In this document: positions 4,410 through 37,998 of the stretch, piece by piece
How the letters are laid out: the number at the start of each line of letters is the position of its first letter
Position numbering within the stretch: position 1 is the stretch's first letter
IMG/VR virus record: IMGVR_UViG_3300040801_002588
Span: 1-45,979 of that record
Source: a virus
Length of the DNA stretch: 45,979 bases
Strand: one strand, 5' to 3'
Notes under the pieces: model-generated
The model's database searches: none
What the model was told of the DNA's origin: nothing
Seen by the model: the letters and a program-made list of their open reading frames with translations, nothing else
Translations under genes and position numbers: made by a program

Positions 4410-4415
4410 GCGGAT

Positions 4416-9951: not shown

Positions 9952-9975
9952 TGGCAGTGATTCGTAATACCGGGA

Positions 9976-9995
9976 GGGGGGCCGTCAGGCCCCCC
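9976..9995 (+). terminator. Strong GC hairpin after capsid gene (attenuator or RNA-stability element)
   Basis: A perfect 8-bp stem GGGGGGCC / GGCCCCCC with loop GTCA, 24 bases after the capsid stop. No U-run follows, so full intrinsic termination is doubtful. It may partly terminate late transcripts or protect the 3' end of the capsid message from exonucleases. The loop GTCA is the same as in the hairpin at 36934-36961. Confidence 0.5.
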
Positions 9996-10034
9996 GACCG
10001 GGATAATCCCTTCAAGTAACCAAAGGAAAAATCC

Positions 10035-10673: not shown

Positions 10674-10684
10674 AGGAACCGTAA

Positions 10685-23900: not shown

Positions 23901-26900
23901 AATTTCATTGGAGCAACGGCATATTGAGGATTTGTTCGATACGATCCGCAGCATGCTTGCCGAACAAGGCACTATTGATGAAGCGGCTCAATTCCTAAGT
24001 ATTCTGGTGCGTGCCGTACGCTTGGCAAATGCCATTGATATCAAGATTGATCCCGAATTCCGTAACCTGCCGGGCTATGAAGTAGGTTTGACGGATGCAA
24101 CTGTGATGGAACAAAAGTTAGGTGAAGCGCTGAAATCACTTAAGCCTGGCCAGCGTGTAGGCGCAGAGATCAGCTTTAACGATACCGACATATTCACGCA
24201 TAACTTCAAATCCAGATTGATGTCTGCATTGCGTATGACCTATGGTTCTTCGTTACGTTATGCATTGCGCATTGAGAATCTGAACCAGGATGCCGTACGT
24301 AAATTCATGAGTGAAGCCGTAAACATTATGGCCATCATCATACGACCGGTACTGGATCAAAAAATTAAAGAACAAAAAATGCTGGGACTGGATGTAGGTC
24401 CAGCTGAAATTAACCAGATTGTACGCAGCATGATCAAAGGCGGAATCTGGCCCACATTGCAGACGCACCTTTCCCATAATGCAGAAACTGGATTGGATGC
24501 CATGAGTTGGGATTTTGAAGCACTTGACGATGTGGCCTTCAAAATTGCACGTGAGCCTTCTGAGCGGGTCAAGAAAAACAGCGTCAAGGACAATGTTCGT
24601 ATGCTGATGCCACAAGGGCGTGGCGGCATTGCAGCTAATGTGCGCCTAAATCAGGCACTGAGTGACGCTGTAGTTATGATCCTGGTTGCTGAAAAGGTGC
24701 CCTTGATCAGCACCCTTGACGGTGGCATCACGTCACCCAAATTGGTGGGTGAAGCAGTACGTCTGGCAAATGAATACAGTGCTTCTTCGATGTTGGAAAA
24801 CAACATCATGGAGAATCTGTTCAATGAGCTCGCCAAGACATTGGTTATTTTGCGGGACGACAATACACTATTGCCACCGGATGTACGCAAGGTGGTCAAG
24901 GCCCGTTTACATGATGCTTTGTCACGTGACTACACACCAGAACCCTCAGTAAGTTTGCTGGATACCTGGCTGGGTCGATTTGAAGGTGTAGTGACCCAGG
25001 TTAAGAAAGCCAGAGAGCAGGCATTTTTCAGTGGGATACCGGTTCAATTCGGTAACTTTGTTTATCGAGGCGGTGAGATCACACACCAAAAGAAAGGTGT
25101 GGAATCCAATGAAAAAACGCCACTGGGTTTGCTGCAAGCAGAAATGGCAGCCAATCGCGGTCAAACTGTTGTTGGCTTGAAGGCGGTTACAGATGCATTC
25201 CTTAAATCCATGGAATCGTTTGAAACTCGCTATCGTGAGTTTGATGTCAAGCGGTTGGCTTATGGATTAAGCACCAATACCGAGTCACAGATGTTGCGTG
25301 GCATTCTGAGTCGCAGCAATAACGCTGGTGGCGCCAAAGAAGTCACACTACAAGAATTGCTGGAGGTTATGACGGATGCCAGCAATAACGTAGGTCGGCC
25401 ATTAACACATTCAATCATGCAAAACCTGGCTCGCTACGCCAAGGTATTCAATGCCAATGAAATCCGTGTGCGCTGGACAGATGCCCTGCTGCGGGATCCG
25501 GATAACCCCGCTAACCTGGTTTACGCTGAGTTCGATCCTAAAGCCAATGGCGGCAAAGGTATTATTCGTATTTCAGGTCCTTACTACACGGACAACAGCA
25601 ACCCTGATATGGATCTGTGGCAAGCCGTCACACACGAGATGGCACATGGCGTATTGCAGCGTAAGTTCGAGCAGATGTTTTCTGATGAGAACCTGGCTGA
25701 GAACGAACCACAGGTACAGGCATGGCTAGGTCGACAGATGTGGGCACTCAAGCAGCTCAAAAATGTCACCAGCATGCAATTGCCAATACAACGCATTGCA
25801 GAAGCAGCGAACAGCAAAAACCTCCGTAAGTTTATGCAGAACGAGGCCAACCGGGATTCAGTCATCAAGGGTCTGTCTGAGTTTTATGCCTGGAGTCTGA
25901 CCTCCAAGGAGAAGATCCCAGAGAGTCTGCAAGAAACTCTGTCATTGCCGGATCTGAATACACAGGCCAAGCTGGGTTTGAATGCGTTGATCCAACAGGA
26001 TCGACGTAACCGACGACAGGAACAGCAAGATGCACAAGGTGCTGCCACCCTGGTCGGACTGTTATCCATGCCGGGTGTAGACGTGGTTCAGAGTGAAGAG
26101 CTGCAGCGGCGCACTGAAGACATTCGTAAGCCTGGCCAGGAAGGTAATCCGCAAAGTTCATCCACTCCTACTTATGGAGATCCACGCATAGATGGTGTAG
26201 AAGGTGCGGGTGAGACTGATCTGAACTTAAAAGAATTTATCACCAGCTTTTACAATCGCACTACGGCAGATCAAGTGCAGTATGTGTTTGATGTACTCAG
26301 TGAACGAGAGCAAGGTGAAACTAGTCCTGAACACCAACGTCAGCTGAAAAGCATTATCCAACGCTTCATCATTCCGGGTATTCGCTCCATTGGTTGGGTT
26401 GAAACTCGTCTAATGGACAAAATGCCAACCGCCCGGCATGGTGGTGCTTATGCCTATGATAATGACACATTGGGTAAAGGCACAGTTTATCTGGGTGCCG
26501 CTGGTAACCAGCTCACATCTAATGCGTACATGTCGCTGGAAGAAATCGCAGCGCATGAATATCTGCATGCCATTATCAAATTTGCACTACGTAACAACAT
26601 TCATTTCCGTACAGAACTGCAGCGTCTGTTTCAATTGGCTAAGGATAATCTGACCTGGGAAAACTTAATGCCCCCGGCGGATCAGATTGTTGGTGATCCC
26701 AAAATTGCCGAGGAAGCGGCTAAGCGCAGGTGGGACTATATCTTTGAAGGCATGGGTCCGAATCCGCTGGAAGATTTCATGGCTATCGGGTTGACCAATG
26801 AACCGCTCTCCAATGCATTGAAAACCCTGGATCAGGCAAAGTTGAAGAACAAACCACTCATAGAGGGTACGTTCTCCGAACGCTTGCGTAATTTGTTGAC

Positions 26901-29766
26901 GCGGATGTTGGAATGGTTAGCCGGCCTAAAAATGAAAACCAATCAGGGTTCAGTGTATACCGGGCTGGAGCAACTGACACTGGAGATTGTCAAATACAAC
27001 ACTCAGACAGCCCAGAAGATTCAGCGACGTCAGATGGGTAAACGTCCCCTTCTGGACCGCCTGAACACGGCTACAGGCGATCTGATCGATACAGTAACCC
27101 GCAAGCCAATCAAACGTCTGTTGGACCGTCAGCAGGGCGACAATTGGCGGAGCAATGGTTTACGTGGTGCCGTAGGCAAAGTAGCTAGCGAATACATGTC
27201 TGAACGCAGGAAGCATATCGAGCAGGCCATGGATGAGTGGTACCGAGGTATTGGTGGTGTCAAGAACAATGCTTTGTTTGAGATCATGGAAGAGTTTAAG
27301 CCGTACGATCCAGACAAGCGCAAGTGGTACCACGTGTTGCGCATGTCTGATCACGAGATTGAACAAGCCAGACGCCGTATGGCTGAAGACATTCGGCGCT
27401 TTATCATGGAGCATTTTGATAAGAAAAACTTCATGAACAAGGCTGAACGGGCAGCCATCACAACTGTGGTCATGCGGACCAACCTGCAGGTGTTGCTGGA
27501 TACCAATGCACCTAACTACAGTGAGTTAATCAAACTGCTCAGTGATCCCCAGTATTTACAAGCAGCTATCCAAGCTGAATTACGTACGCTGAACAAGGCA
27601 GTGAATGGCAACCAGGAATTGTTCAGAACATTCTATAACCAGGCCGGCAATCTGGGGTATTTCAAAATCGATGGTGTAGAGCGGCTTGAAGGTCAAATGT
27701 TTAATGCCACCAACATCGTAAACCAGGTCCAGTACCATAAGAACGAACGGTTAAAGGTACCGCATAAGGAAGACGCCATTGCAAGCGTGGAGCGGTTGTC
27801 TGCACTGCATGCTATCGATTTGATGCAGCACAATGGATCCAACGATATCCAAAATGCCTTGCGTGTGTTTAATCATGAAATGGCCAGGGATGTTGATATC
27901 AATGGCTTTACCTGGTTGGTTGATCTGCATAGTGTCTATGTCGCCATGGAAAAGAAGCGGCTACACAATGACAAAGCAGAGACCATGGTTGATGGGCATG
28001 TGTATGAGCAATATGACGAAGAGAGCAGCGTGCGGATTGAGATCGACACGCCAGCCAACAGGGAAGCCTTGGCGAAAGAAGGCTTTTTCTGGGTAGCTGA
28101 TTTCGAAGCGTCACCCAATGACCCCATCAAGGATAAGCGAGCTTGGTTCAAGAGTGCTCGTGGCATCAGTCTGCGCCAGCGTGGCGCCATATCAATTACC
28201 AGTGATGGTGATATTGGTCCGGACATGCGGGAAAACGTACGCCTGTCAGAGAAAGCCAGAAAACTGCATTTACGGGGACAGACACGCAGGCTGACCCAGC
28301 ATTTGGATACACAGACCAAGAATGCGGCCAGGGCCCAACGTCATACCATCATGGTGCAGCGGGACTACAACGGACCCAAGTTGATGGCCCCAGTGGTCAA
28401 TGAAGATGGTGAGGTTTACACCTACAAATACAATGTTCCAATGTCGATACGGGATAATGTGTTTGGTCGGGAGGATTACTTTGATCGGATCATGCCACGT
28501 CAGTTTGGCCACTTGGAAGATGTGGTTAAAAGTGAGGAGCATAACCGGAATATTGCCCGCATGTTGTTCGATGAGTATATCGCACTGAAAAACAATAAAG
28601 GCATACGCTTTGTACGCTATGGTGCGGACAGTACAGATCCGCGGATCCGAGAGACGTGGAACCTGTTGCCCAAAGCAATGAAAGAGGAAATGCGGCGTCG
28701 TTTTGGTGGGGATTATTTCTACATACGTGACGACATCACGAGTGCAGTGGTGGGATATCGTAAGCTGACCGTATCAGATGTAGCAGGCAAGCATGCCTTT
28801 GCTGTACGTACAGCTGAACGCATCGTGCAGGAGATCATGCAATGGACCAAATTGGATATCGCTATCCTGGATCCTACGGTAGCGGCAGCCAACATGGTCT
28901 CTAATATTGCTTTGCTACTGATGGCAGGCGTGCCCCCCGATTACATTATCAAGGAAGCAGCTGTAGCCATGCGAGGCGTGGCCCAGTATCGGAAGGATCT
29001 ACGGGAACTGCGTAGAAAACAACTACAGACACAAATGGACATCGCCAAAGGCGGTACTGGCAGTCAGTACTTGGGTGATTTGAAGTTACTGGAACATCGC
29101 ATTACACATAACCCAGTAAAGTCTTTGATGGATGAGGGTATTTTCACTACGATTGTCGAAGATCACGTGCCGGATGAAACATCCTTACGCAGTCGGGCTA
29201 TTGAAGCTGTTGAAGACAAAATGGGTCGAGCCATTCATCCATACGCTGCACGAGCAGTGAATGAATTCTGGATGCTACCCGGATCTACTGGCTTTCAGGT
29301 GATGATTGCAGCGACCCAGTATGCTGACTTTGTCAGCCGACATATCATCTACCAATATGAGACCCAGGTACGTGGAGCATCACATGAAGATGCTCTGGAC
29401 AAAGCTCTGGCTTACTTCATCTGGTATGACCTGCCGCAGAATATGTATCTGCAGTATGGCGGTGATATGGGAATGATCATGTTCAGTAAGTATTTCTTCA
29501 GGATTCAGCCTGTAGTTACCATGATCTTTGTGACCAATCCAGCCACAGCTACAGCTGTGATCTTGCTGCAGCCTATGCTAGCAGGGATGTTTCCGCAGCC
29601 CTTTGAGCAAGCTATGGGAGCCAACATCCAAGACTACTTAATGCTGGGTGGTTTTAATATCCAAGGGCGTTTACATATGTTCCCATTAATGGCAACAAGT
29701 GAACGTAACATATTGACACCTAACTTATTACAGGCAGTGATGTGGCCGATAGGTGGAATGCAATGA
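20968..29766 (+). CDS. Giant (2932 aa) virion RNA polymerase-like protein with two HExxH domains
   Basis: It occupies the N4 vRNAP (gp50) slot: last late gene, next to the convergent replication genes. Proposed T7/N4-type polymerase motifs: motif A at 791-797, D-A-K-G-A-G-L, with Asp and Gly spaced as in T7 D-G-S-C-S-G-I; motif B around 1081-1094, FKSRLMSALRMTYGS, with Y-G-S as in T7, though the nearest Lys is 11 rather than 8 residues before Tyr; motif C at 1250-1251 as L-D where H-D is usual. Residues 612-638 may be the T/DxxGR region. After the polymerase come two metallopeptidase-like domains: HEMAH at 1556-1560 with E1638, and HEYLH at 1863-1867 with E1935. The last ~330 residues are hydrophobic in patches, like the C-terminal part needed in N4 for packaging. 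It is expected to be ejected with DNA and to transcribe early genes from hairpin promoters. The polymerase assignment is inference from synteny plus motifs. Confidence 0.65.
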   Translation: MPLVCSIKGRTAEQTLKRIRSGELQAVKHITDAMREAREGMYDGAGYPAEKLLKIFTMPENAIRQEVYQTLAPYAWMALDTEIDNSIHELIENRDTTLDEIIERVDAIARDENLTLDTRLSNIRTAMFGRLAKFTQETGKRPSPKALNLAQGTSVAYIESVFLNKDSKSKLDEARNKKPVVDHLWDIFESRSEDKTNSIFALQANAMGLFETLLGQGLLWDVELGEIGASGDAFKAAAYRYLDYHKKFVNALRKAMGPYDPTKSKTAQHPLYNKGQNFDERLREDPSFFLRNPITGEMPANVEGALSAAVFWYASNIIGRTLYLNPREVNRRLGRRLDHPVSEDEMTNPEIQGESEEVARQMIGNMAWKALGMYHDRSVPGHHEELIKMALGQWGLETLAELGVIKPENVLVDLAEVTGSQIAESTKVRLIQLERVEREDSGTYNEETGILEDFEYDPPPLYRQMLDTYWALRNKGDTSPKNNNEQEVKGHLLGRLFGWGSDTSLPILADGNSEKPVTSPKLSSGNNSVPQVMADAATVHAQREQKFNTVGMHVMNLIGVVPFLNLYTKYESNRNKIHKDKRQGAIDRNTQLRADVNFMKRWFAVAKDQGFYIPNRFLNNWRNHEDSRLSRQMSKIHRAFVQPAETAYVIKAGQAGQTEKEFLVAVAEKIGISLRKDQVPRGERPVKFDPEALETWDQAYEQAQLYLNQPILKSDGTTSRLIVEVAEVLGRLSDPTRTHRATAQELKLLQELNYNDHEIEAEGFIALMNYGRYLTAPKGTEIEVFQPVQFDAKGAGLNWQLSQLITLDTYDESLNKLATGGYKINDEQVFDLDTRQMSTMKYLDQTTDAYERLRDARVTYTTSVAQGKTPVVVGTTIEFQETDLRITALTRNVEISKQNFLDIQSHTRPWESIFRTSKAKYEEDLADLRAAYAVTLTDANGKTLHQTLQELDLLPSDASKSRELVKHVAMIKAYFAGEISLEQRHIEDLFDTIRSMLAEQGTIDEAAQFLSILVRAVRLANAIDIKIDPEFRNLPGYEVGLTDATVMEQKLGEALKSLKPGQRVGAEISFNDTDIFTHNFKSRLMSALRMTYGSSLRYALRIENLNQDAVRKFMSEAVNIMAIIIRPVLDQKIKEQKMLGLDVGPAEINQIVRSMIKGGIWPTLQTHLSHNAETGLDAMSWDFEALDDVAFKIAREPSERVKKNSVKDNVRMLMPQGRGGIAANVRLNQALSDAVVMILVAEKVPLISTLDGGITSPKLVGEAVRLANEYSASSMLENNIMENLFNELAKTLVILRDDNTLLPPDVRKVVKARLHDALSRDYTPEPSVSLLDTWLGRFEGVVTQVKKAREQAFFSGIPVQFGNFVYRGGEITHQKKGVESNEKTPLGLLQAEMAANRGQTVVGLKAVTDAFLKSMESFETRYREFDVKRLAYGLSTNTESQMLRGILSRSNNAGGAKEVTLQELLEVMTDASNNVGRPLTHSIMQNLARYAKVFNANEIRVRWTDALLRDPDNPANLVYAEFDPKANGGKGIIRISGPYYTDNSNPDMDLWQAVTHEMAHGVLQRKFEQMFSDENLAENEPQVQAWLGRQMWALKQLKNVTSMQLPIQRIAEAANSKNLRKFMQNEANRDSVIKGLSEFYAWSLTSKEKIPESLQETLSLPDLNTQAKLGLNALIQQDRRNRRQEQQDAQGAATLVGLLSMPGVDVVQSEELQRRTEDIRKPGQEGNPQSSSTPTYGDPRIDGVEGAGETDLNLKEFITSFYNRTTADQVQYVFDVLSEREQGETSPEHQRQLKSIIQRFIIPGIRSIGWVETRLMDKMPTARHGGAYAYDNDTLGKGTVYLGAAGNQLTSNAYMSLEEIAAHEYLHAIIKFALRNNIHFRTELQRLFQLAKDNLTWENLMPPADQIVGDPKIAEEAAKRRWDYIFEGMGPNPLEDFMAIGLTNEPLSNALKTLDQAKLKNKPLIEGTFSERLRNLLTRMLEWLAGLKMKTNQGSVYTGLEQLTLEIVKYNTQTAQKIQRRQMGKRPLLDRLNTATGDLIDTVTRKPIKRLLDRQQGDNWRSNGLRGAVGKVASEYMSERRKHIEQAMDEWYRGIGGVKNNALFEIMEEFKPYDPDKRKWYHVLRMSDHEIEQARRRMAEDIRRFIMEHFDKKNFMNKAERAAITTVVMRTNLQVLLDTNAPNYSELIKLLSDPQYLQAAIQAELRTLNKAVNGNQELFRTFYNQAGNLGYFKIDGVERLEGQMFNATNIVNQVQYHKNERLKVPHKEDAIASVERLSALHAIDLMQHNGSNDIQNALRVFNHEMARDVDINGFTWLVDLHSVYVAMEKKRLHNDKAETMVDGHVYEQYDEESSVRIEIDTPANREALAKEGFFWVADFEASPNDPIKDKRAWFKSARGISLRQRGAISITSDGDIGPDMRENVRLSEKARKLHLRGQTRRLTQHLDTQTKNAARAQRHTIMVQRDYNGPKLMAPVVNEDGEVYTYKYNVPMSIRDNVFGREDYFDRIMPRQFGHLEDVVKSEEHNRNIARMLFDEYIALKNNKGIRFVRYGADSTDPRIRETWNLLPKAMKEEMRRRFGGDYFYIRDDITSAVVGYRKLTVSDVAGKHAFAVRTAERIVQEIMQWTKLDIAILDPTVAAANMVSNIALLLMAGVPPDYIIKEAAVAMRGVAQYRKDLRELRRKQLQTQMDIAKGGTGSQYLGDLKLLEHRITHNPVKSLMDEGIFTTIVEDHVPDETSLRSRAIEAVEDKMGRAIHPYAARAVNEFWMLPGSTGFQVMIAATQYADFVSRHIIYQYETQVRGASHEDALDKALAYFIWYDLPQNMYLQYGGDMGMIMFSKYFFRIQPVVTMIFVTNPATATAVILLQPMLAGMFPQPFEQAMGANIQDYLMLGGFNIQGRLHMFPLMATSERNILTPNLLQAVMWPIGGMQ

Positions 29767-29837
29767 GATCAATGTGATACTATCCGCCATGCAAGGTTAG
29801 TAGGTTATCTCTGTGCCCTTTCCGAACAAGGGATTAC

Positions 29838-29863
29838 GCCCCGCCGCCAGGCGGGGCTTTTTT
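29838..29863 (+). terminator. Intrinsic terminator of the late (+) unit
   Basis: Perfect 8-bp stem GCCCCGCC / GGCGGGGC with loop GCCA followed at once by six T, 72 bases after the giant gene's stop. This is a textbook rho-independent terminator for the whole late operon. Confidence 0.93.
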
Positions 29864-29868
29864 ATGCA

Positions 29869-29900
29869 CAAAAAGAAGGGCTGCATTGCTGCAGCCCTTC
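29869..29900 (-). terminator. Intrinsic terminator of the converging (-) unit
   Basis: Perfect 11-bp stem GAAGGGCTGCA / TGCAGCCCTTC with a 4-base loop. Read on the - strand it is followed by TTTTTG. It lies 44 bases after the stop of the exported-protein gene and only 5 bases from the late terminator, forming a two-way barrier. Confidence 0.9.
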
Positions 29901-29943
29901 CAGTACCTAACAGACGGGTTGGAACCTAACCCGGTGTCAGGAT

Positions 29944-31692
29944 TCAGTTAACGTCTGGCTTCGGTAATCCCGTAGCACAGTCGTCATCACCATTGGTGAC
30001 ACGCAGTTCACAGGTAGCCGAGTTACTGGTTACCGTGCACGTCTGCGGGCCACCGGGGTCACCTACACAATCCGCACCAGCGGTATTGACCGGAGTGGTC
30101 ACTACGACGGTTACCTGATCCATGAACGGGCAGGCATCTCCACTCGGGATGGACTGCGGATAGTAGAAGCCAGTGTAGCTGATGCACTGTCCAGCCGGGA
30201 TGGTGGTGGCATCTGGATTCAGCGTGACTGAACCATCCGCTACTGCATCCGTGAGGCTGGTGAGTGTAAGATCAACTTCACCATCGTTACAGACTTGACC
30301 ATCTACATTGACCCGGACTGCAAGCATGCTACCCATGTCTTCCACACCAACCTCACATTGCTTGTTGGCGTTCAGAGACGCATTGAACGTGCGAGCAGGG
30401 CACGTATCAGTCGCCGTAGCCGGATCAACCAAAGCACCGCCAAGACCTACAGCGGTAACAGTGACCGTATCCGTCGGAGCATTGATCGCACTCGCTTCCG
30501 AGAAGTAGAACACCAACGCTTCACCCGCATCCAGCGCGTACGTTGACGGGTCTGCGACGAGTGTTCCATTGGCCGTTGCGTCGGCAAGACTCGTTGCTGA
30601 TGAGCAGTCATTAGCCGCGTCAAACCCGGCTGGCGTTTCGTACCACGTAAGGTCCGCCGGAACATAATTACCCATACCTCCGATGTTGTTCTGGAAGTCG
30701 CTGAGATACAGCGAACCAGAGCCGTCATTGTAATAGCAACCACGAACATCGTAGGTAATGTTCAGCGGCGTATCGTCCGTCAGGTCATCATTGGTGCAGA
30801 CCTTGGAAGCCGCCACTGAGCAGACATCAAAGCCACCCAGCGCAAAGTCCTTGGCTGTGGATGTAAAGCTGGTCGAAGCACCTGTCGCTACCATGTAGCT
30901 GGAGAAGCACAGGTTGGCTCCGAAGAATGAGAACACATTGATACCACCTTCAAAGAACGTGGTCGGCGGGAACACCATGTCCGTGCCAGACTTCGGCGTG
31001 TACGGCCACGGGCTATCGGCGTCAATGAGGTTGGTGATGGCACATGCCCGACCACCGGAGCCGTCACAAGTAGACGCTTCCAGTGGTTGCAGAATGATGA
31101 TGTTGTCTGCTGCGCAGGACAACGCCACGTCGGGTGTCCGGTCATCTTTATCGCAGTCAGGCCACCAAGCGTACACAGCGATCTCTGCTACGCGACCGCC
31201 GTTACTGAACTTGGACGCTACGTACAGATCGCCTTCCACGTGGTTGCCAAAGAACGTGCCGTCAGGATTTAATCCAACATCATCCTGCAGTAACCAAAAC
31301 GCCAGTTCCGCATCACCATTGTCTGCGAATAGGTCGGCACCAAACATGACGACCTGTTCGCCGCTGACGATGTAATTGGCAGCATACGCATTGGTGATAT
31401 TGGTTTTGTCGGGCGGAGGCGGAGAACCTTTCCACTTGTAGTTGGGAAAGTCCTCGGGAACCTTTGATCCGCCACCGGTGAAGATGGTATCCGGTGAACT
31501 GAAATCCTCGATGATGCCGGAAAAGGTAGTCTGGGCGCCGCCGCCCCCATACAGCGTATCCCAGTCGTCACCAGTTACAGCGGTGTCTTCAGCGTCACCG
31601 TCAAGTTCGAAAATACCCAGATCATCTACTGCTAAAAGCGGGGTACAGAATACCGCCGCTCCTAACAGCACGGCTGTTAAGAATCGCTTCAT
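29944..31692 (-). CDS. Exported cysteine-rich protein (moron-like)
   Basis: 582 residues from the ATG at 31692, with AGGAG upstream. The first 21 residues (MKRFLTAVLLGAAVFCTPLLA) form a Sec signal peptide, cleaved after A-x-A-like L-L-A; no lipobox is formed. The region after it carries L-D-G-D, G-D-D-W-D, TIFTGGGSK, P-D-K and MFGADLFADNGDAELAFW, which I recognise from secreted proteins of environmental bacteria (LDGN...GDDWD type), not from phage structural proteins. The C-terminal half contains paired Cys and at least two similar beta-rich repeats. It is bracketed by intrinsic terminators on both sides, so it is an independent transcription unit. A likely role is alteration of the infected cell's surface or matrix; this is inference. 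Confidence 0.75.
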   Translation of the reverse strand: MKRFLTAVLLGAAVFCTPLLAVDDLGIFELDGDAEDTAVTGDDWDTLYGGGGAQTTFSGIIEDFSSPDTIFTGGGSKVPEDFPNYKWKGSPPPPDKTNITNAYAANYIVSGEQVVMFGADLFADNGDAELAFWLLQDDVGLNPDGTFFGNHVEGDLYVASKFSNGGRVAEIAVYAWWPDCDKDDRTPDVALSCAADNIIILQPLEASTCDGSGGRACAITNLIDADSPWPYTPKSGTDMVFPPTTFFEGGINVFSFFGANLCFSSYMVATGASTSFTSTAKDFALGGFDVCSVAASKVCTNDDLTDDTPLNITYDVRGCYYNDGSGSLYLSDFQNNIGGMGNYVPADLTWYETPAGFDAANDCSSATSLADATANGTLVADPSTYALDAGEALVFYFSEASAINAPTDTVTVTAVGLGGALVDPATATDTCPARTFNASLNANKQCEVGVEDMGSMLAVRVNVDGQVCNDGEVDLTLTSLTDAVADGSVTLNPDATTIPAGQCISYTGFYYPQSIPSGDACPFMDQVTVVVTTPVNTAGADCVGDPGGPQTCTVTSNSATCELRVTNGDDDCATGLPKPDVN

Positions 31693-31721
31693 TGTCTCTC
31701 TCCTGCGCTGCTTGTGAACAT

Positions 31722-31737
31722 CCCGCAGGTTTGCGGG
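31722..31737 (-). promoter_or_regulatory. Leader hairpin upstream of exported-protein gene
   Basis: A perfect 6-bp stem, CCCGCA / TGCGGG, with a 4-base loop, 30-45 bases before the start codon, inside the short gap between the upstream terminator and the gene. A promoter for this gene must lie in the same ~70 bases; a weak -10-like TATGCT is visible near 31748. Whether the hairpin is part of a promoter or of the mRNA leader is open. Confidence 0.35.
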
Positions 31738-31760
31738 GTCATTCTTAGCATAGCACGCGG

Positions 31761-31809
31761 AGAAAAAAAGAAGCCCCCAGTGAAAGGAGAATGCATACTC
31801 ACCGGAGGC
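31761..31809 (-). terminator. Intrinsic terminator between 297-aa gene and exported-protein gene
   Basis: On the - strand GCCTCCGGTGA pairs with TCACTGGGGGC (11 pairs, two of them G-U) around a 15-base loop and is followed by TTCTTTTTTT. It should stop transcription from the long - strand operon before the exported-protein gene, implying separate expression of that gene. Confidence 0.8.
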
Positions 31810-31927
31810 TAAGGTGCGGCCAATGAAGAGAAACCGCACTAGGGGTTGGTGGGGCAACTAACAGGAACTTGAGTATCTGTGCTAACAGTTACGGGTAAGT
31901 TTATGGTCCTGCTCGCTGCCCCGTCGA

Positions 31928-32821
31928 TCAGAACTCAGCGCCTGCGACGAATGCAGGAATGTCCTTGGTGGCCGTGGGTTCATCGCCCCACTGACCCGGA
32001 AGGCGCTTCTCGTAGCCTTTCACAGGCTGCGCCGATCCAACGTCGATCTGGTGCGCCAGGTTCAATGCCACGCTGAAGGCGCGGGATTTGTACTGCGCCG
32101 TTTCGAAGTACGCATTCATGGCGTAGGCAATCCACTGCGGGTGGTTGGTGATCGTGTGGACGTAGGTACGCGGAATGGATACGCCGTTGTAGACCACTAC
32201 GCCACCGTGTAGCTGACCGGCCATGACCGACACACCGACGAAGTGGTACTTGACGAACATGGCTTTCCACACTTCCTGCTCGGTCTGGTTGTACGGCCAG
32301 AACGGCCCCATGACGTAGGGCGGCTGCTCACTGCCGTCCATGTTGTGCATGTTCATGGTGGGCAGCATGACCCACTGGTCCAGCATCGCGTGACCAGCCA
32401 TCGCAATGATCCGCTTGCTGACACCGTAGTGTTCAGCCACTGCATCAGGCTGCTCGATCCACAGGCGGGCGCTCTCCTGCCGCTTCTGCAGCAGGTGGCA
32501 ACCGTAGTAGCGTTTCTTGCTAACGTTAAGACCCTGATGTACTGGGCCGCTGAAGTATTTGTTGAGAGTGGTCTGACTGGTCGGCAGTTCGACCGGCATC
32601 AGATCCAGTTGCTCGTAGCCTTCAGCGTTCTGCACCTCGACCGGCGAGAAGTCATCCGGCAGGGGCGGCGGTGGCGTGCGCTGGCCGGTGGCCGTATGGG
32701 CCTGGTTGTTGACGATGAACTCCAGTGCCGTGACCTGCTTCTGCCACTCGGGGTTATCGGGGTACTTCGCCGCCATGCGACGGGCGTGTTCTAGCATTGC
32801 TACGGTTTGGTTCGAGGCCAT
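31928..32821 (-). CDS. Hypothetical 297-aa protein
   Basis: Clear AGGAGAT ribosome site before ATG. The N-terminal ~40 residues are helical, followed by a Pro-rich stretch (QRTPPPPLPDD). The C-terminal 200 residues are rich in His, Met, Tyr and Trp (for example MLPTMNMHNMDG and YHFVGVSVMAGQLHGG) with no signal peptide or membrane helix. I do not recognise a family. It is the last gene of the long - strand operon before the terminator at 31761-31809. The Pro-rich hinge suggests two parts; no catalytic motif could be assigned. Confidence 0.65.
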   Translation of the reverse strand: MASNQTVAMLEHARRMAAKYPDNPEWQKQVTALEFIVNNQAHTATGQRTPPPPLPDDFSPVEVQNAEGYEQLDLMPVELPTSQTTLNKYFSGPVHQGLNVSKKRYYGCHLLQKRQESARLWIEQPDAVAEHYGVSKRIIAMAGHAMLDQWVMLPTMNMHNMDGSEQPPYVMGPFWPYNQTEQEVWKAMFVKYHFVGVSVMAGQLHGGVVVYNGVSIPRTYVHTITNHPQWIAYAMNAYFETAQYKSRAFSVALNLAHQIDVGSAQPVKGYEKRLPGQWGDEPTATKDIPAFVAGAEF

Positions 32822-32830
32822 GATATCTCC

Positions 32831-32923
32831 TTAGATGATGCCCATTTTAATCCACCAGTACAGCAGCCACAGGACAACAAGGATGCTACAGGTGAGGATG
32901 ATTTTGTCTTCTAAACGTCTCAC
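32831..32923 (-). CDS. Possible 30-aa single-pass membrane peptide (GTG start)
   Basis: Starting at GTG, the peptide has four charged residues in its first seven, then a long hydrophobic stretch (IILTCSILVVLWLLYWW) and ends IKMGII, 9 bases before the next gene's start. No good ribosome site is visible, so translation is uncertain. It fills the only gap between two genes in this operon. Confidence 0.4.
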   Translation of the reverse strand: MRRLEDKIILTCSILVVLWLLYWWIKMGII

Positions 32924-32944
32924 GCAGCATAATTTACCACAGAA

Positions 32945-33376
32945 TCAATCAGGTTCAGCTTGTTTGCGCTTGATTGTCGAGTACACGCCACTCTCAATAT
33001 CTTCAATCTTTACTTCAGATTTGGGACGGATATCGAAATACAATTTGCCATTGCGTTCACCACTGATGTGAACTGTGCTGTCCTTGTACTTGCGTTGTTC
33101 AAAGGAACCATCAGGATAATTCAGAATAATCTTGTCATTCCGCTTGGTAACAATAGGTGGTTCGTCAGCATGAGCAGACAGGCTGGAAATCATCATGGCA
33201 AACAGAACCATCATAACGATGAGGATCAGGGCCAGCCAGGTCAGGTTAATGTGCCCATCCAGCCAACGCTCCCACTTGGCGGAGCACTGCCCGCACCATG
33301 GGCAGCTGCCGTTATCACGGACATTGATGGAGCGACGATGGCAATGCGTGCACGTGCTATCCCAGTTCGGGTTCAT
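32945..33376 (-). CDS. Zinc-ribbon/transmembrane protein with periplasmic domain
   Basis: 143 residues. Residues 9-28 hold two C-x2-C pairs (CTHC and CPWC), a zinc ribbon expected on the cytoplasmic side. A single hydrophobic helix lies at about 44-65 (LTWLALILIVMMVLFAMMIS) and is followed by S-A-H-A, which could be a signal-peptidase site. The remaining ~75 residues form a charged beta domain outside the inner membrane. The start overlaps the upstream gene's end by 20 bases. The unusual mix of metal finger, membrane anchor and external domain suggests a membrane-signalling or superinfection-related role, but nothing in the sequence proves one. Confidence 0.65.
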   Translation of the reverse strand: MNPNWDSTCTHCHRRSINVRDNGSCPWCGQCSAKWERWLDGHINLTWLALILIVMMVLFAMMISSLSAHADEPPIVTKRNDKIILNYPDGSFEQRKYKDSTVHISGERNGKLYFDIRPKSEVKIEDIESGVYSTIKRKQAEPD

Positions 33377-33551
33377 TTTGAGCTTCCTTCTCGCGTTTGA
33401 TCAGGTCAGCCAGCCGGGTGGGAATGACGATGTTGTCGTTACAGCTGGGACAGCAGACGCCATGATCCTTGGCTGGGGCAGGGTTGTTCTTTTCGTAAAG
33501 GGTGTACAGGACGGTACCACAGAAGACACAAGGTTCAGGTTGGGACATCAT
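33357..33551 (-). CDS. Small zinc-ribbon protein
   Basis: 64 residues from the ATG at 33551, chosen for the GAGGAG 7 bases upstream. Two cysteine pairs, C-V-F-C (8-11) and C-P-S-C (34-37), make a zinc ribbon, followed by a charged helix. The start overlaps the preceding stop (ATGA). Likely cytoplasmic; function unknown. Confidence 0.65.
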   Translation of the reverse strand: MMSQPEPCVFCGTVLYTLYEKNNPAPAKDHGVCCPSCNDNIVIPTRLADLIKREKEAQNEPELG

Positions 33552-33748
33552 CGACAGGCTCCTCGATGGATTAATGCAACAGCTGTAATAGAAGATGGGA
33601 TCATTATGCAAAGTAAGGACACAACGACCCATTCCGGTATTGAAATGCCAAATGCCTTGAGTACAAGGAAAGCAGCAGTGGCTCCGAAAGCCATCCAAGA
33701 CAATGTTTTGGCGACCCAGATAATACGATCAATCGTCTTGGTCTGCAT
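33548..33748 (-). CDS. Small membrane protein, two helices
   Basis: 66 residues with a GAGGAG ribosome site. Two hydrophobic segments (WVAKTLSWMAFGATAAFLVL and WVVVSLLCIMIPSSITAVAL) are separated by a short I-S-I-P-E turn; short charged ends. The size fits a holin-like or membrane-modifying peptide, but N4-type lysis genes normally lie in the late region, so this is only a possibility. The stop is coupled to the next gene. Confidence 0.6.
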   Translation of the reverse strand: MQTKTIDRIIWVAKTLSWMAFGATAAFLVLKAFGISIPEWVVVSLLCIMIPSSITAVALIHRGACR

Positions 33749-33980
33749 CGTCAGGCTCCTCGTCAGATATGCCAGGTTGGTTTATCAGTAGCTGGTTCAG
33801 GTCGTGGATAGGAAGGATATAACAACCTGTGTCGCCCTGGATGGACTGCCAACGGCTTGACAGTTCGATCAGGTCAGTCAGCAACTCGGCGTACTGTTGG
33901 TTACGCTCTCGCAGTTGATACAGGGCATTGCCTGCAATATCGCCGATCTCCACGGCAGAGTGTGGTTTACTCGTTGTCAT
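33729..33980 (-). CDS. Hypothetical 83-aa protein with acidic tail
   Basis: Helical and charged (ALYQLRERNQQYAELLTDLI), ending in a strongly acidic tail (DEEPDDADQDD). It overlaps both neighbours (14 bases upstream, 20 downstream). It resembles the other short acidic-tailed helical proteins of this cluster, though it lacks the RIAELE motif. Confidence 0.6.
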   Translation of the reverse strand: MTTSKPHSAVEIGDIAGNALYQLRERNQQYAELLTDLIELSSRWQSIQGDTGCYILPIHDLNQLLINQPGISDEEPDDADQDD

Positions 33981-34173
33981 CTGGGTTCCAATAATTGTCT
34001 AATGCCGCTGGGTAACTTTCGGTTTGTACTACCCATACAATATCAACGTCAGGCTCAGCGTCGAGGCACTGCTCTTCGGCGTGGTCGTTGTCTTCGGCAT
34101 GGCATGCGAATCCCATTGGGTTATCGCCGGGAGCACACAGCTTGGTTTTGTACAGCACGATGTAATTATTCAT
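33967..34173 (-). CDS. Hypothetical 68-aa protein
   Basis: Start set at ATG 34173 because the preceding gene's last codons supply GGGAG 7 bases before it. The sequence begins MNNYIVLYKTK and contains many Asp, Glu and Asn plus two Cys, with an acidic C-terminus (WNPDDNE). The upstream gene's C-terminal Asp-Glu codons overlap this gene's ribosome site and start. No family recognised. Confidence 0.6.
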   Translation of the reverse strand: MNNYIVLYKTKLCAPGDNPMGFACHAEDNDHAEEQCLDAEPDVDIVWVVQTESYPAALDNYWNPDDNE

Positions 34174-34414
34174 CTTCATCTCCCAGCGCAGGTGGCGTCC
34201 AGCCCAGTTCAATCAGCTTGTTGTGGATGGCGCTTTCTTTCATGGCAGGGGACAAGTTGTATTCAACAGTGACGGTTTGTCCAGAACGAATGGCTTTCAG
34301 TTCTGCTTCCAGTTTATCGATGCATTCAGCGGCTTTTTTCAGAACATCCCATCCCGGTTGATTCTTGTCCCCGATTGCATACAGCGCCAATAATCTTTTC
34401 TTTAGAGCACTCAT
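34166..34414 (-). CDS. Small helical protein of the coiled-coil cluster (82 aa)
   Basis: Starts MSALKKRLLALYAIGD at the shared ATGAGTG-type junction and ends in G-D-E-D-E. A central helix holds ECIDKLEAELKAI, a variant of the repeated coil seen in neighbouring genes. The last codons (GGAGATGAAGATGAA) double as ribosome site and start of the next gene. Confidence 0.6.
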   Translation of the reverse strand: MSALKKRLLALYAIGDKNQPGWDVLKKAAECIDKLEAELKAIRSGQTVTVEYNLSPAMKESAIHNKLIELGWTPPALGDEDE

Positions 34415-34752
34415 TCTTCACCCTCCAGGGCCGCTTCAAGTCTTTCCAGGTAAGAACCAACAACCGTTACACCATGCCCGATAGCCGCGTTTCCGAGGCG
34501 GGTATCTTCCCCCATCTCATCGGTTATTTCCCGAACCTTATCCAGCTTCGCTTCCAGTTCAGCATTCCGCGTATCCAGTACTGCCACCTGTTCGCATATA
34601 TCGTCCAGTGCTTTATCCAGTTCAGCGATGCGTTCCGTCAAACGGTTCAATTCTTTAACGGAATTTACGCGGCGTGAGGACATCGGACGGAAACAGTATT
34701 GAGTCTTCCAATATTGCTTGTAAGTTTTTGCTGGATTGATAAAGTCACTCAT
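34411..34752 (-). CDS. Coiled-coil protein of the mosaic small-gene family (113 aa)
   Basis: Starts MSDFINPAKTY by overlap with the upstream stop. Residues about 40-85 are a coiled coil, including ERIAELDKALDDICEQ, which is closely repeated in the 34944-35324 gene (QRIVELDKTLDDICEQ), and a later NAELEAKLDK. Ends in E-G-E-E. The shared block implies duplication or recombination between these genes. No catalytic motif; a binding or bridging role is plausible. Confidence 0.65.
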   Translation of the reverse strand: MSDFINPAKTYKQYWKTQYCFRPMSSRRVNSVKELNRLTERIAELDKALDDICEQVAVLDTRNAELEAKLDKVREITDEMGEDTRLGNAAIGHGVTVVGSYLERLEAALEGEE

Positions 34753-34951
34753 CGGTCAGTTCCTCCAGCATAAAAGCAGGAATGCTGTGGGTTTCAGCAA
34801 CATAGGAAATTAGTGCCCTATGTTTGCGTGTCCACTCACGAACGTTCCGTTTGTCTTGTTCCAGTTCAGCGATGCGACACTGTGGGCAAAAGTCGGGCGG
34901 TGCATAGCTGACTTTATGCTCGCACCCACTTCGGATCAGTTTGTCACTCAT
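34745..34951 (-). CDS. CxH...CxxC zinc-knuckle plus coil protein (68 aa)
   Basis: Start at ATG 34951 (MSDKLIRSG), which follows GGAGATGAAG of the upstream gene. Residues 10-25 hold C-E-H then C-P-Q-C, a likely zinc site, followed directly by RIAELEQDKRN, the family coil. A second gene at 35299-35451 has the same order (C-E-H, C-P-D-C, RIAELE), so the two are paralogues. Ends in E-E-L-T-D-E. Confidence 0.65.
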   Translation of the reverse strand: MSDKLIRSGCEHKVSYAPPDFCPQCRIAELEQDKRNVREWTRKHRALISYVAETHSIPAFMLEELTDE

Positions 34952-35324
34952 CTTCATCTCCAAGTGTCCGTTCAATCAGGGCGTGAAGTTCGTTATTCTT
35001 GTGTAGGAAAACATCTGCATAAACCTCTTGCAGCACAGCCTCCAGTTCAGCGATGCGTTTTTTATCTTCCTTCCACTCTCGCAAGTTGCGTTCATGGGTT
35101 TTGATCAGGCGCTTTTTCTGCTTTTTCAGTTCAGCGATGTGTTCCAGCAGGACGTCCATCTGTTCGCATATATCATCCAACGTTTTATCCAGTTCTACGA
35201 TGCGCTGATCTACTTCCTCTACATCGTACCAATCACCATCATCATCCTGGTGGTTTAACGCTGGCAGTTCTTCGCCCATATCGGTGAGGCAGTAGCATCT
35301 AAATTTCGTCAGGTTTCTCATCAT
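34944..35324 (-). CDS. Long coiled-coil member of the mosaic family (126 aa)
   Basis: Two adjacent ATG codons (35324, 35321) follow GGA; the first is used here. After an acidic N-terminal region (HQDDDGDWYDVEEVD) come three coil blocks: QRIVELDKTLDDICEQ, EHIAELKKQKKRL and KRIAELEAVLQEVYA. The last codons encode T-L-G-D-E-D-E and overlap the next start. It appears to combine modules found singly in neighbouring genes. Confidence 0.65.
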   Translation of the reverse strand: MMRNLTKFRCYCLTDMGEELPALNHQDDDGDWYDVEEVDQRIVELDKTLDDICEQMDVLLEHIAELKKQKKRLIKTHERNLREWKEDKKRIAELEAVLQEVYADVFLHKNNELHALIERTLGDEDE

Positions 35325-35451
35325 CAAAGTCCAACAGGCTCAACGCACGTTTGAGCATTTTGTTTTCAGTTTCCAGTTCAGCGATGCGGCAATCTGGACA
35401 GTTATCAATCCAGCCTTCTGCCATGTGTTCACACCATTTTCGCTCACTCAT
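35299..35451 (-). CDS. CxH...CxxC zinc-knuckle plus coil protein (50 aa)
   Basis: 50 residues from ATG 35451, which follows GGAAGATGAAG in the previous gene's end. C-E-H at 7-9 and C-P-D-C at 18-21 form the putative zinc site; RIAELETENKMLKRALSLL makes the coil; the tail is acidic (DFDDEKPDE). Paralogue of the gene at 34745-34951. Confidence 0.65.
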   Translation of the reverse strand: MSERKWCEHMAEGWIDNCPDCRIAELETENKMLKRALSLLDFDDEKPDEI

Positions 35452-35872
35452 CTTCATCTTCCAGTGCAGATTGCAGTTCGCCAGTTGCTTGCTCAACTGC
35501 GGAATATGGGCCGACGTGCCATGTACGCCTCCGTAGACTAATAATCTTTTCTCGCACCCTGCCTATCTTGTTCTTTTCTGCTGCCAGCAGCTTCAAAGCA
35601 CGGCCTGCGTCATCACGATTTCGCTGAATGCATTCGGCTGGGGTTTCGCCGTCCTTGAGGTACGGCTTGCAGGCTTCCAGTTCAGCGACTTTACGCAGCG
35701 CTTCACCCTCCGCTTTAATTGCTGCGTGTTCGCTGTCTTTGTATTCGTTCAGCAGGTTTTGTAGTTCAGAGATGCGGTCAAATGCTTTTTTTAGCTCGAT
35801 GTCACGGAGCTTGATAATCCGTACAAGGTCGTTGATCTTGGCGATTAGTGGTTCATTTTGTTTTTCCTTCAT
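35444..35872 (-). CDS. Coiled-coil protein (142 aa), first of the mosaic family
   Basis: Start coupled to the upstream stop (TGATG). Almost wholly helical with heptad-like Leu/Ile spacing; contains DRISELQNLLNEY and RKVAELEACKPY, related to the RIAELE block of downstream genes, and ends in A-L-E-D-E-D-E. Basic patches near the middle (KNKIGRVREKIISLRRR) could contact nucleic acid. It is the longest and most upstream gene of the cluster. Confidence 0.65.
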   Translation of the reverse strand: MKEKQNEPLIAKINDLVRIIKLRDIELKKAFDRISELQNLLNEYKDSEHAAIKAEGEALRKVAELEACKPYLKDGETPAECIQRNRDDAGRALKLLAAEKNKIGRVREKIISLRRRTWHVGPYSAVEQATGELQSALEDEDE

Positions 35873-36087
35873 CAGTCACGGTCCTGTTGTTGTGGCATCC
35901 TGACGATGGCACGCTTGTCACCGACAATCTGGTTGGCCAGAAACCAGACCATCCAGAATACGGCCATGCCGACGAACCAGGGCGCTTGTTGGCCCATAAT
36001 GAACACGGTAGCCAGGATACCCAGGCCCCAGCCCAGGATCTGTGACCACATGTTGGATCGACGTACGTACAGGACATGAACTTTCAT
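35872..36087 (-). CDS. Small inner-membrane protein, two helices (71 aa)
   Basis: GGAG lies 9 bases before ATG. Basic N-terminus (KVHVLYVRRSN), then two hydrophobic helices (ILGWGLGILATVFIMG and FVGMAVFWMVWFLANQIV) and a basic C-terminal tail, so both ends should be cytoplasmic. Overlaps both neighbours (ATGA, TGATG). Function unknown. Confidence 0.65.
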   Translation of the reverse strand: MKVHVLYVRRSNMWSQILGWGLGILATVFIMGQQAPWFVGMAVFWMVWFLANQIVGDKRAIVRMPQQQDRD

Positions 36088-36296
36088 CTGATTTTCTCCG
36101 CGACTCCTACTCTTTCCACGGTGTCGACTGTGACATCTTTGTAGCTATCACCGGCGGGTTCCCAGTTCAGGTCATCGTCATAGCGGCGATCCATGGCGCC
36201 AGCAGCAGCCATCTGATCATCCACAGCACGGACGAGTACAGTGGTGTACTCGTCACGCGCCCGAACCAGGGTCACTCTGAACAGTTGTTCTTTCAT
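36084..36296 (-). CDS. Hypothetical 70-aa protein
   Basis: The ATG at 36296 is used; the TTG four codons earlier is less likely. Mixed alpha/beta and acidic: begins MKEQLFRVTLVRARDEYTTV, then many Asp and Ala. It follows a gap of ~165 bases after the 36461 gene. Coupled to the next gene by ATGA. No family recognised. Confidence 0.55.
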   Translation of the reverse strand: MKEQLFRVTLVRARDEYTTVLVRAVDDQMAAAGAMDRRYDDDLNWEPAGDSYKDVTVDTVERVGVAEKIR

Positions 36297-36460
36297 CAGG
36301 TTTTCCAAAAATAGGTGGGACGGGGTACGCGATGACTGTACCTGGAGTGTCTAGAATTTCCGTAGCCGGAGTAATCTCTTACAGGGAGATCAACCCCTGC
36401 ACCGGCACCGTCCCATTGAACAGTTATAATAGGTGAAGCAGCCCGGGCGGCTTCAGAAAC
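36297..36460. other. Intergenic gap with weak inverted repeats
   Basis: A 164-base gap in an otherwise overlapping operon. On the - strand it contains AGCCGCCCGGGCTGCT, a near-perfect palindrome just after the 36461 stop, then a A/T-rich CCTATTATAACTG that could serve as a -10 region. A promoter or processing site for the downstream small genes is possible but not proven. Confidence 0.35.
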
Positions 36461-36685
36461 TTAGTGAATCTCGTCAGGTTCTTCTTCTTCTTCTTCGACC
36501 TGCGCTTTATCCAATTCTGCGTACTCCAGAACTTTGATTTCGTCGTCCAGCTCGTTGATACGCTGGCTCAGTGTCTGGAAGATGCTGAAGCACAGGCTGC
36601 GCCAGTCAACAGGCACATTCTTCTGGTATGCAGCGTCGGCTGCTTGCAGCAGTTCAATGACAGTAACGGGTTTGGTTTCAGACAT
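36461..36685 (-). CDS. Hypothetical 74-aa helical protein with polyglutamate tail
   Basis: AGGAG ribosome site; start overlaps the upstream stop (TAATG). Helical throughout (VIELLQAADAAYQKN, then LSQRINELDDEIKVLEYAEL, a coil similar in style to the RIAELE family) and ends with six consecutive Glu then P-D-E-I-H. Function unknown. Confidence 0.6.
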   Translation of the reverse strand: MSETKPVTVIELLQAADAAYQKNVPVDWRSLCFSIFQTLSQRINELDDEIKVLEYAELDKAQVEEEEEEPDEIH

Positions 36686-36915
36686 TAGTAGATCTCCTTG
36701 ATGGATAGGACTTTGTGGATGTCAGGGTCGTACACTTCGTCGAGCTTGGCAGCCATTTGTTCGCGGGCACGGATGCCAGCGATGGTGCGTAAGGGTGGAC
36801 CATCAAAGCCTCGGGGCATGGCTTCCTGGGCACTGATGAAAAACGTCATCACTTCATCCGTCTGCAGATGCCAGCACTGGACTTCATATTCTCTGGGTTG
36901 TGGTTTATGGGTCAC
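36685..36915 (-). CDS. Hypothetical 76-aa protein (GTG start)
   Basis: GTG start with GGAG 7 bases upstream. Contains YEVQCWHLQTDEVMTFFISA and a Pro/Gly loop, looking like a small alpha/beta domain. Coupled to the next gene by TAATG and preceded by a strong hairpin (36934-36961). Confidence 0.6.
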   Translation of the reverse strand: MTHKPQPREYEVQCWHLQTDEVMTFFISAQEAMPRGFDGPPLRTIAGIRAREQMAAKLDEVYDPDIHKVLSIKEIY

Positions 36916-36933
36916 TGCTTTCTCCGATTGAAG

Positions 36934-36961
36934 TTGGTGGGCACCGTCAGGTGCCCACCAA
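36934..36961 (-). promoter_or_regulatory. Perfect 12-bp hairpin in the - strand operon
   Basis: TTGGTGGGCACC / GGTGCCCACCAA around a 4-base loop (GTCA on the + strand), 19 bases before the GTG start of the 36685-36915 gene. No U-run follows on the - strand, so it is more likely an RNA-stability or processing element, or a weak terminator, than a full terminator. Loop identical to the one after the capsid gene. Confidence 0.55.
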
Positions 36962-37070
36962 CAATTAACGCTGGAATGGTTCCGGGCATTTATGAACGCC
37001 AGGGATGAACCCGGACCATTGTTCTATCGCCCTGCTCCCAGCATCACAGGACTGGAGTCATCCCCTATGG

Positions 37071-37349
37071 CTATGCGGAATTGCGTGCAACACGCATGTA
37101 TTCTGCCACAGCATGGCTGGCTTCCTTGGCTGCTTTTGCTACCTCGGAGAGCCCTACCTCGTCACGATCTTTCAGCTCACGCTCGTAGATCATTTCGAGG
37201 GCTTTGGCCAAGCTGTTGGGATAGGCTGGGTCATCTGTTTTCCAAATGATCTCGCCTTTGTTCTTGCCGGACTGCATGACATGCCTGCGTTGGATAATCC
37301 AACCGTATTGGTCTGATACGATGCGGCGTTTGCCGCAGTTGATGATCAT
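37071..37349 (-). CDS. Hypothetical 92-aa protein
   Basis: GGAGG ribosome site 7 bases before ATG; the start overlaps the preceding stop (ATGA). N-terminal beta hairpin (RRIVSDQYGWIIQRR), then W-K-T-D-D-P-A-Y-P-N-S-L and two helices (AKALEMIYERELKDRD, KAAKEASHAVAEYMRVA). The layout recalls small phage proteins of unknown role. It is followed by ~155 bases without a gene, holding an imperfect inverted repeat (AATGGT...ACCATT) and the 36934 hairpin. Confidence 0.6.
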   Translation of the reverse strand: MIINCGKRRIVSDQYGWIIQRRHVMQSGKNKGEIIWKTDDPAYPNSLAKALEMIYERELKDRDEVGLSEVAKAAKEASHAVAEYMRVARNSA

Positions 37350-37489
37350 GAGCTGCCTCCATCAGAGATGACGGCATACAGGAAATAAACAGCAGCAGCA
37401 CAGCCGACAATAAATCCGAAGACAGGTGCCGCTATGCCGATACCCATGACCAGCAAAATCAGACCCACTACAAACAGCATGTCTTTCAT
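37346..37489 (-). CDS. Small membrane protein, two helices (47 aa)
   Basis: GAGG 8 bases before ATG. MKDMLFVVGLILLVMGIG is the first hydrophobic segment, and PVFGFIVGCAAAVYFLYAVI is the second; tail S-D-G-G-S-S. The stop overlaps the next start. Too short for a usual ORF cut-off, but the ribosome site and both junctions are good. Confidence 0.65.
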   Translation of the reverse strand: MKDMLFVVGLILLVMGIGIAAPVFGFIVGCAAAVYFLYAVISDGGSS

Positions 37490-37492
37490 GGT

Positions 37493-37717
37493 TCAGTCCT
37501 CGTCGTTGCTGCCAAATCCAAACGGAGTACTACCCACAGCAGGTGCAGGCTGTTCTGTGGGGCTGGTGATCTCCACCTCTGCTGAGGTACTCGGCGGCTT
37601 GCGATTGGCAACGAAGCGGATTTCCACCTGACGGTTTTCGAGGGGAATGCCCTGACTGGATCGCAGGTACTCGGTGACGGCTTCTACCAATTCATCTTGG
37701 TTTAGTTGTACGAACAT
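37493..37717 (-). CDS. Hypothetical 74-aa protein
   Basis: GGAGG upstream. Begins MFVQLNQDELVEAVTEYLRS, then a beta strand (RQVEIRFVAN) and a Pro/Ser/Thr-rich tail ending F-G-S-N-D-E-D. It looks like a small alpha/beta protein with a flexible acidic tail, similar in style to SSB-type tails; function unknown. Confidence 0.6.
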   Translation of the reverse strand: MFVQLNQDELVEAVTEYLRSSQGIPLENRQVEIRFVANRKPPSTSAEVEITSPTEQPAPAVGSTPFGFGSNDED

Positions 37718-37719
37718 GC

Positions 37720-37998
37720 TTAAGCCTCCCGTGCAATTTTGCGAGCCATCTCCGCAAAGGAGTCATAGTTGGCGTCTTCGGTTTTTCGACACTCCGCACA
37801 CATCTGACGACGGCGGATGTCCCTCAATTCTTGTTGGCTACGGAATTCGAAGGCGCCACAGCTGCAGCGCACTCTGTACCAGTGCTGGTCATCGACCATG
37901 ACCCGCCCGTTACGCGGGTTAATGTTGGTATGGTCCACGTACTTGATCACCATGAACTGACCAACCTTCTGAAACGGTTGAAATCTAGGCTTCGCCAT
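37720..37998 (-). CDS. Zinc-ribbon protein (92 aa)
   Basis: ATG 37998 is used because AGGA lies 7 bases before it. C45-S-C47 and C67-A-E-C70 form a likely zinc site inside a beta region (WYRVRCSCGAFEFRSQQEL). Many Arg and Lys. It overlaps the end of the RuvC-like gene by 14 bases, so the two may be co-expressed; DNA or RNA binding is a reasonable guess. Confidence 0.65.
   Translation of the reverse strand: MAKPRFQPFQKVGQFMVIKYVDHTNINPRNGRVMVDDQHWYRVRCSCGAFEFRSQQELRDIRRRQMCAECRKTEDANYDSFAEMARKIAREA

Follow-up and report, generated by a model that had tools for sequence, protein, structure and literature searches.

A predicted exported protein of bacterial type as likely captured cargo of an N4-like phage

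The window analyzed here, a virus record taken at its full length of 45,979 bases, is, on gene content and order, a fragment of an N4-like (Schitoviridae-type) phage genome, and one of its genes, P0001, very probably encodes an exported protein of bacterial type that the phage has captured. Sequence comparison establishes the gene, the boundaries of its unit, its phage context, its bacterial homology, and the carriage of the family by several unrelated phages; we infer export of P0001, disulfide formation, and the timing of expression. The complete reading that we favor, at a probability of roughly 45%, is that an N4-like phage captured the gene from bacteria as cargo and that the exported product would act outside the infected cell as an adhesive or coat-like protein. 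Phage cargo as such is already known; what is new here is an unnamed exported family that appears to have been captured more than once.

The P0001 gene and its transcription unit

A preliminary description of the window had placed at this site an exported, bacterial-like protein encoded as an independent moron unit, and that claim is borne out by bacterial homologues, a signal peptide, and a unit of its own in the phage genome. The open reading frame is real, lies on the minus strand, and has full-length homologues. Delimited mechanically, it begins with TTG (31857..29944, minus strand, 637 aa), and the likely start is the ATG at 31692, with AGGAGAG 5 nt upstream. The span originally given, 29944-31809, holds the P0001 gene, which ends at 31692, and at its upper end also takes in an insulating terminator. 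The features, with coordinates in the window, strand, and basis, are as follows.

29944..31692, minus: coding sequence of P0001, predicted exported protein, 582 aa (open reading frame, Shine-Dalgarno sequence, full-length homologues)
31698..31704, minus: Shine-Dalgarno sequence AGGAGAG (sequence)
31630..31692, minus: predicted signal peptide, residues 1-21, predicted cleavage between LLA and VDDLG (sequence, homologue alignment)
30793..31629, minus: N-terminal family domain, residues 22-300 (alignments of 17 and 11 members)
29947..30792, minus: C-terminal cysteine-rich beta region, residues 301-582 (sequence, alignment)
29870..29901, minus: P0001's own terminator (-22.8 kcal/mol, z -4.3, 0/200 shuffles as good)
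29838..29863, plus: terminator of the convergent vRNAP gene (-20.5)
31763..31810, minus: terminator of the upstream gene at 31928-32821, minus (centroid -20.7 kcal/mol, z -2.5)
31747..31755, minus: candidate extended -10 element TGCTATGCT, without a good -35 (sequence)
31722..31737, minus: 6-bp hairpin CCCGCA/TGCGGG in the presumed 5' leader, from about +1 (sequence)

P0001 is predicted to carry a signal peptide, as initially claimed, and this is of the Sec type: by inspection of the sequence, the N-terminus (MKRFLTAVLLGAAVFCTPLLA before the cut, VDDLG after it) has the three regions, n, h, and c, and the aligned homologues repeat the cleavage point, A followed by V[DH]DLG. The product is an acidic, cysteine-rich β-protein, with a mature chain of ~58 kDa, a pI of 4.05, and 18 cysteines.

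Terminators were correctly placed on both sides of the gene, namely, P0001's own (29901-29870) and that of the upstream gene (31810-31763), with the vRNAP terminator facing at 29838-29857. The upstream terminator combines a 13-bp stem with a T-run (4 of 200 shuffles were as good) and insulates the P0001 unit from the preceding gene. The promoter sought between 31693 and 31760 is not a consensus -35/-10 site, but the interval contains the candidate extended -10 element TGCTATGCT at 31755-31747, one of just 12 such sites in the whole window. A consensus -35/-10 match at 31718-31691 was rejected as a promoter because it overlaps the start codon, and the leader hairpin, ~10 nt downstream of the extended -10 site, was rejected as a terminator because it has no T-run. 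Because both terminators and the extended -10 site were found, the independent transcription unit is supported as real in sequence terms, its promoter being a candidate. The gene thus has the layout of a moron, that is, its own terminator and a candidate extended -10 promoter between phage genes, and it is absent from the same site in the reference Schitoviridae, which carry other small genes there.

Composition, whose comparison was proposed earlier as a check, gives no sign of foreign origin: the GC of P0001 is 0.549 vs 0.508, and its codon score falls inside the spread seen for the other phage genes. Foreign composition was accordingly rejected as evidence.

An accessory slot in an N4-like genome

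The affiliation of the window follows from several of its genes. In the PHROG search, the portal matches phrog_1216 (E 1e-250) and the MCP/head gene phrog_1357; the vRNAP corresponds to phrog_2206 (E 8e-189), and the portal is ~57% identical to those of known N4-like phages. The gene order, that is, vRNAP, accessory genes, Holliday-junction resolvase, SSB, AAA protein, and primase, is that of the reference Schitoviridae, where the resolvase of the window was assigned from the PHROG search and the last three proteins from order and sequence inspection. By this order, the site of P0001 is the accessory slot at the junction of the vRNAP gene and the replication module. The P0001 gene adjoins the vRNAP gene, with which it is convergent, and is oriented opposite to the late genes of the window, at the late/replication junction. 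The corresponding slot of the reference Schitoviridae, from vRNAP to resolvase, holds small, variable minus-strand genes, over ~1-3 kb where measurable. With N4-like genes in conserved order on both sides of the slot, a chimeric contig is unlikely. A scan with the C-terminus of the vRNAP found no close relatives of the window phage.

Other features of this region were observed in passing. At 8.2 kb, compared with ~1-3 kb in the references, the accessory region of the window (29767-37984) is unusually large and contains numerous short ORFs on the minus strand; for one gene in it, that at 31928-32821 (297 aa), PHROGs, Pfam, and phage records gave no match. The vRNAP itself is apparently split into two in-frame genes, 16696-20955 (1419 aa) and 20968-29766 (2932 aa), separated by a stop and 12 nt, after which comes an ATG preceded by CAGGA; the first corresponds to phrog_2206 in its N-terminal part, and the second covers the rest of it, whereas the vRNAP of the reference Schitoviridae is a single chain of 3022-3376 aa. 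The 2932-aa protein contains two HExxH motifs (HEMAH and HEYLH; 25633-26571, codons ~1556-1863), compared with one HE[LI]VH in each of three reference vRNAPs.

A family of exported bacterial proteins

Searches of Pfam, NCBIfam, PHROGs, PADLOC, and PDB sequences with P0001 yielded no match. A profile of 11 members reached at best E 0.14 in the PDB, which was rejected, and there were 0 family members in 50,697 phage records, a match to Gordonia phage Bachita (E 2) being due to chance. By tblastn, however, conjugative plasmids of Vibrio were found to encode a full-length homologue (E 7e-58, 34% identity over residues 2-519). A profile built from this pair detected a family member in Marinobacterium arenosum (C66:14768-16429), and members are present in 4/194 genomes of the order of Marinobacterium and in 5/398 genomes of its phylum, with Marinobacterium itself counted in both, a frequency of ~1-2% of the sampled proteobacterial genomes. 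The likeness to secreted LDGN/GDDWD proteins that had been perceived in the sequence thus corresponds to full-length bacterial homologues, which the homologue search suggested as a check places on both chromosomes and plasmids. The prospect that homologues would turn up only as phage virion proteins, named at the outset as the finding that would count against a bacterial-like cargo, does not hold, because they sit on bacterial chromosomes and plasmids.

P0001 aligns with the family along the whole N-terminal domain, where it is 29-45% identical to 16 members and shares their conserved columns, with the signal peptide, by inspection, directly before the domain; the profile score of P0001 itself is not independent because P0001 is part of the profile. 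The motifs of the domain are ELDGDA, GDDW, GGSK, PDK, GAD.F...GD, H..GD, PWPY.PK.G, FFEGGIN, CFSS, and KDF. As delimited here from sequence, the family comprises unnamed exported 'FELDGNA..GDDW' proteins of Gammaproteobacteria and other Pseudomonadota. The homologues of the Vibrio campbellii plasmid pLMB143 (WP_077202393.1) and of M. arenosum have the same signal peptide and N-terminal domain as P0001, followed by cysteine-containing beta domains, and bacterial relatives can be aligned over the range and at the identity given above. P0001 differs from them in that FGADRF/FWFFQ is replaced by FGADLF/FWLLQ and in that the C-terminal CPLCP tail is lost, with TCEL...DDDC (TCELRVTNGDDDC) in its place. 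Short-form members end in CPLCP, CSVCP, CDVCP, or CPLCR, a tail that is common among the short forms and not defining; like P0001, the long-form members and the viral member L084 do without it. The CxxC tail is conserved in P0002, L107 (9763-11433), L104 (9222-10937), L112 (3926-5515), L109 (4592-6235), and others, and is degenerate in P0001.

The predicted secondary structure consists mostly of beta strands. With an input of only five sequences, the models of the whole P0001 (pLDDT 42) and of the domain from the viral member L112 (pLDDT 46, pTM 0.54) were too poor to use, and the matches of the latter model, at pLDDT 46, to a legume lectin (Foldseek E 0.08, TM ~0.15) and to CBM74 (best VIA Z 5.8) were not significant.

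Among the bacterial members, those in G001, G007, and G182 (two copies) adjoin a convergent gene whose product, a secreted M11/reprolysin-like peptidase, carries NEW3 and Big_9 domains and ends in a Gly-Lys-rich tail; the neighbor in G531 has, in the part covered, Big_9 domains and a tail of this type. A gene for a GspD-type secretin lies directly upstream of the family gene in G001, and, by sequence, a secretin-like ORF is also present upstream in G383; a sigma-54 activator adjoins the copy in G425, ORFs similar to it in sequence accompany those in G253 and G531, and ~2 kb separate the Vibrio copy from a cluster of CS1-type pilus genes. By neighborhood, then, the bacterial proteins would seem to be released from the cell, perhaps through type II secretion. 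Unlike the bacterial relatives, P0001 has no M11 peptidase or secretin neighbor in the phage.

For this repeated pairing of a bacterial family gene with a convergent M11-type peptidase, the partners are located at L104 (7331-9145), L106 (6-1925 and 6108-8789), L107 (11495-13888), and L100 (2-1144), the last with a Gly-Lys-rich tail and, as far as seen, only Big_9 domains. To our knowledge, this pairing has not been described previously.

The neighborhoods also bear on a role of P0001 in the periplasm, where it might act on lysis timing or envelope stability, for instance, by prolonging infection as in the lysis inhibition of N4. Predicted export and the delayed lysis of this model phage would fit (PMC12642591), but the lysis regulators of N4 face the cytoplasm (PMC12642591), and the setting of the bacterial relatives suggests that they are secreted past the periplasm rather than involved in lysis, so that we consider such a role very unlikely.

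Recurrence in unrelated phages and possible roles

A single-sequence scan of viral contigs with P0001 gave no match, and viral members were reached only with profile-derived patterns. Two independent patterns revealed members in three further virus lineages among 2.9 million viral contigs (IMG/VR): the contigs from the first scan were all true members by HMM score, and the second pattern returned the same contigs and one chance match, L118, which is not a family member. The three lineages are L108/L109/L110, which represent one virus in three samples (99.98% identical), L112, and L084; blast detected no proteins common to the window phage and any of them. The relatives in these contigs (for L112, at 3926-5515) resemble P0001 in having the family domain with a signal or hydrophobic N-terminus, and differ from it in belonging to other phage lineages and gene neighborhoods, with 37-42% identity in the domain; the L084 relative, unlike P0001, has PKD-like C-terminal domains. 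Besides a head protein of phrog_1357, L108 encodes a large protein of virion/DarB-like type, and the family gene of L108/L116 ends the late module, at a junction with oppositely oriented genes. In L112, the family gene directly precedes the portal gene, and in L084, which encodes DnaB and SbcC-like proteins, it lies among replication and repair genes.

Two other genes in these contigs were recorded: L112 encodes, just after the portal region (9255-11564), a 769-aa protein with an ADP-ribosyltransferase-like domain (PF03496, E 2e-6), and L084 (9237-10959) an acyl carrier protein, next to which a phrog_7858 protein bears a weak similarity to amidoligases.

The positions in L112 and L108, together with the beta-rich, multi-domain make-up, keep in play a protein of the virion or associated with the progeny, which, set free at lysis or carried on particles, would aid sticking to matrix or cells. 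Nevertheless, all carriers retain a hydrophobic or signal segment at the N-terminus, and such a segment would take the protein away from where virions are assembled; in the window, moreover, the gene runs against the late genes with its own terminator; given the signal peptide of P0001, in particular, we regard a virion role as quite improbable.

In a tree built on the 264-column domain, phage members fall in four places, and a constraint that unites them costs 16.6 units of log-likelihood (AU p = 0.027). A single phage origin of the family is therefore disfavored, and phages probably acquired the gene repeatedly, although the number of captures is uncertain because most deep branches are unresolved. 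These acquisitions weigh against P0001 being a chance passenger without a role in infection, as do its long intact frame, matched codon usage, and preserved signal peptide and regulation; the rarity of the family among viruses, set out above, speaks for a passenger, which nonetheless seems unlikely.

Another rival is a superinfection-exclusion or receptor-shielding protein that, exported late, would bind the phage's own receptor and stop adsorption, or re-adsorption to debris. In N4, superinfection is linked to a lysis inhibition that lasts for hours, and neither an exclusion system nor an exclusion protein is known (PMC12642591), which makes shielding worth weighing for an exported beta-protein encoded as its own unit in a related phage. 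However, an adsorption block has no obvious role for bacterial members located beside peptidases and secretion genes, and the unrelated carrier phages probably use different receptors; we judge exclusion to be rather unlikely.

Under the reading of P0001 as captured cargo, the gene would be transcribed during infection as a separate unit with its own promoter and terminator; the precursor would be exported through Sec and cut after LLA, and the mature chain would fold outside the cytoplasm, with disulfides among its 18 cysteines, into a beta-rich protein. Either at the exterior of the infected cell or after release, it would act adhesively or as a coat, as its bacterial relatives presumably do, altering the contacts of the infected cell with matrix, neighbors, and further phages. 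Among the several roles proposed, an adhesive or coat function appears the most likely, as a guess that we hold at somewhat less than even odds. Against this explanation stand a codon usage that bears no mark of recent foreign DNA, the loss of the CxxC tail, the lack of significance of the lectin-like matches, and the two other phages that carry the gene within or at the end of virion modules.

The family has no Pfam, NCBIfam, or PHROGs model and no PDB sequence relative, yet is found on plasmids, chromosomes, and in four unrelated phage lineages. Its repeated capture suggests that export of the protein pays off during infection, and P0001 offers a clean, single-unit target for testing this benefit. 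More broadly, though improbably, a secreted bacterial surface or matrix family might have been recruited repeatedly by unrelated tailed phages to rebuild the outside or surroundings of the infected cell; if so, it would be a recurrent class of extracellular phage effectors not yet described.

Among known systems, T5 Llp and phi80 Cor are exported phage morons that alter the surface of the infected cell. P0001 resembles them in being phage-coded, with a signal peptide, a unit of its own, and a proposed action at the envelope; they are, however, small lipoproteins or membrane-associated proteins, whereas P0001 is a large, soluble beta-protein. T4 Hoc, an Ig-like decoration protein, and others of its type share with P0001 a beta-rich and possibly adhesive character, but they have no signal peptide and are borne on capsids, whereas P0001 has a predicted signal peptide.
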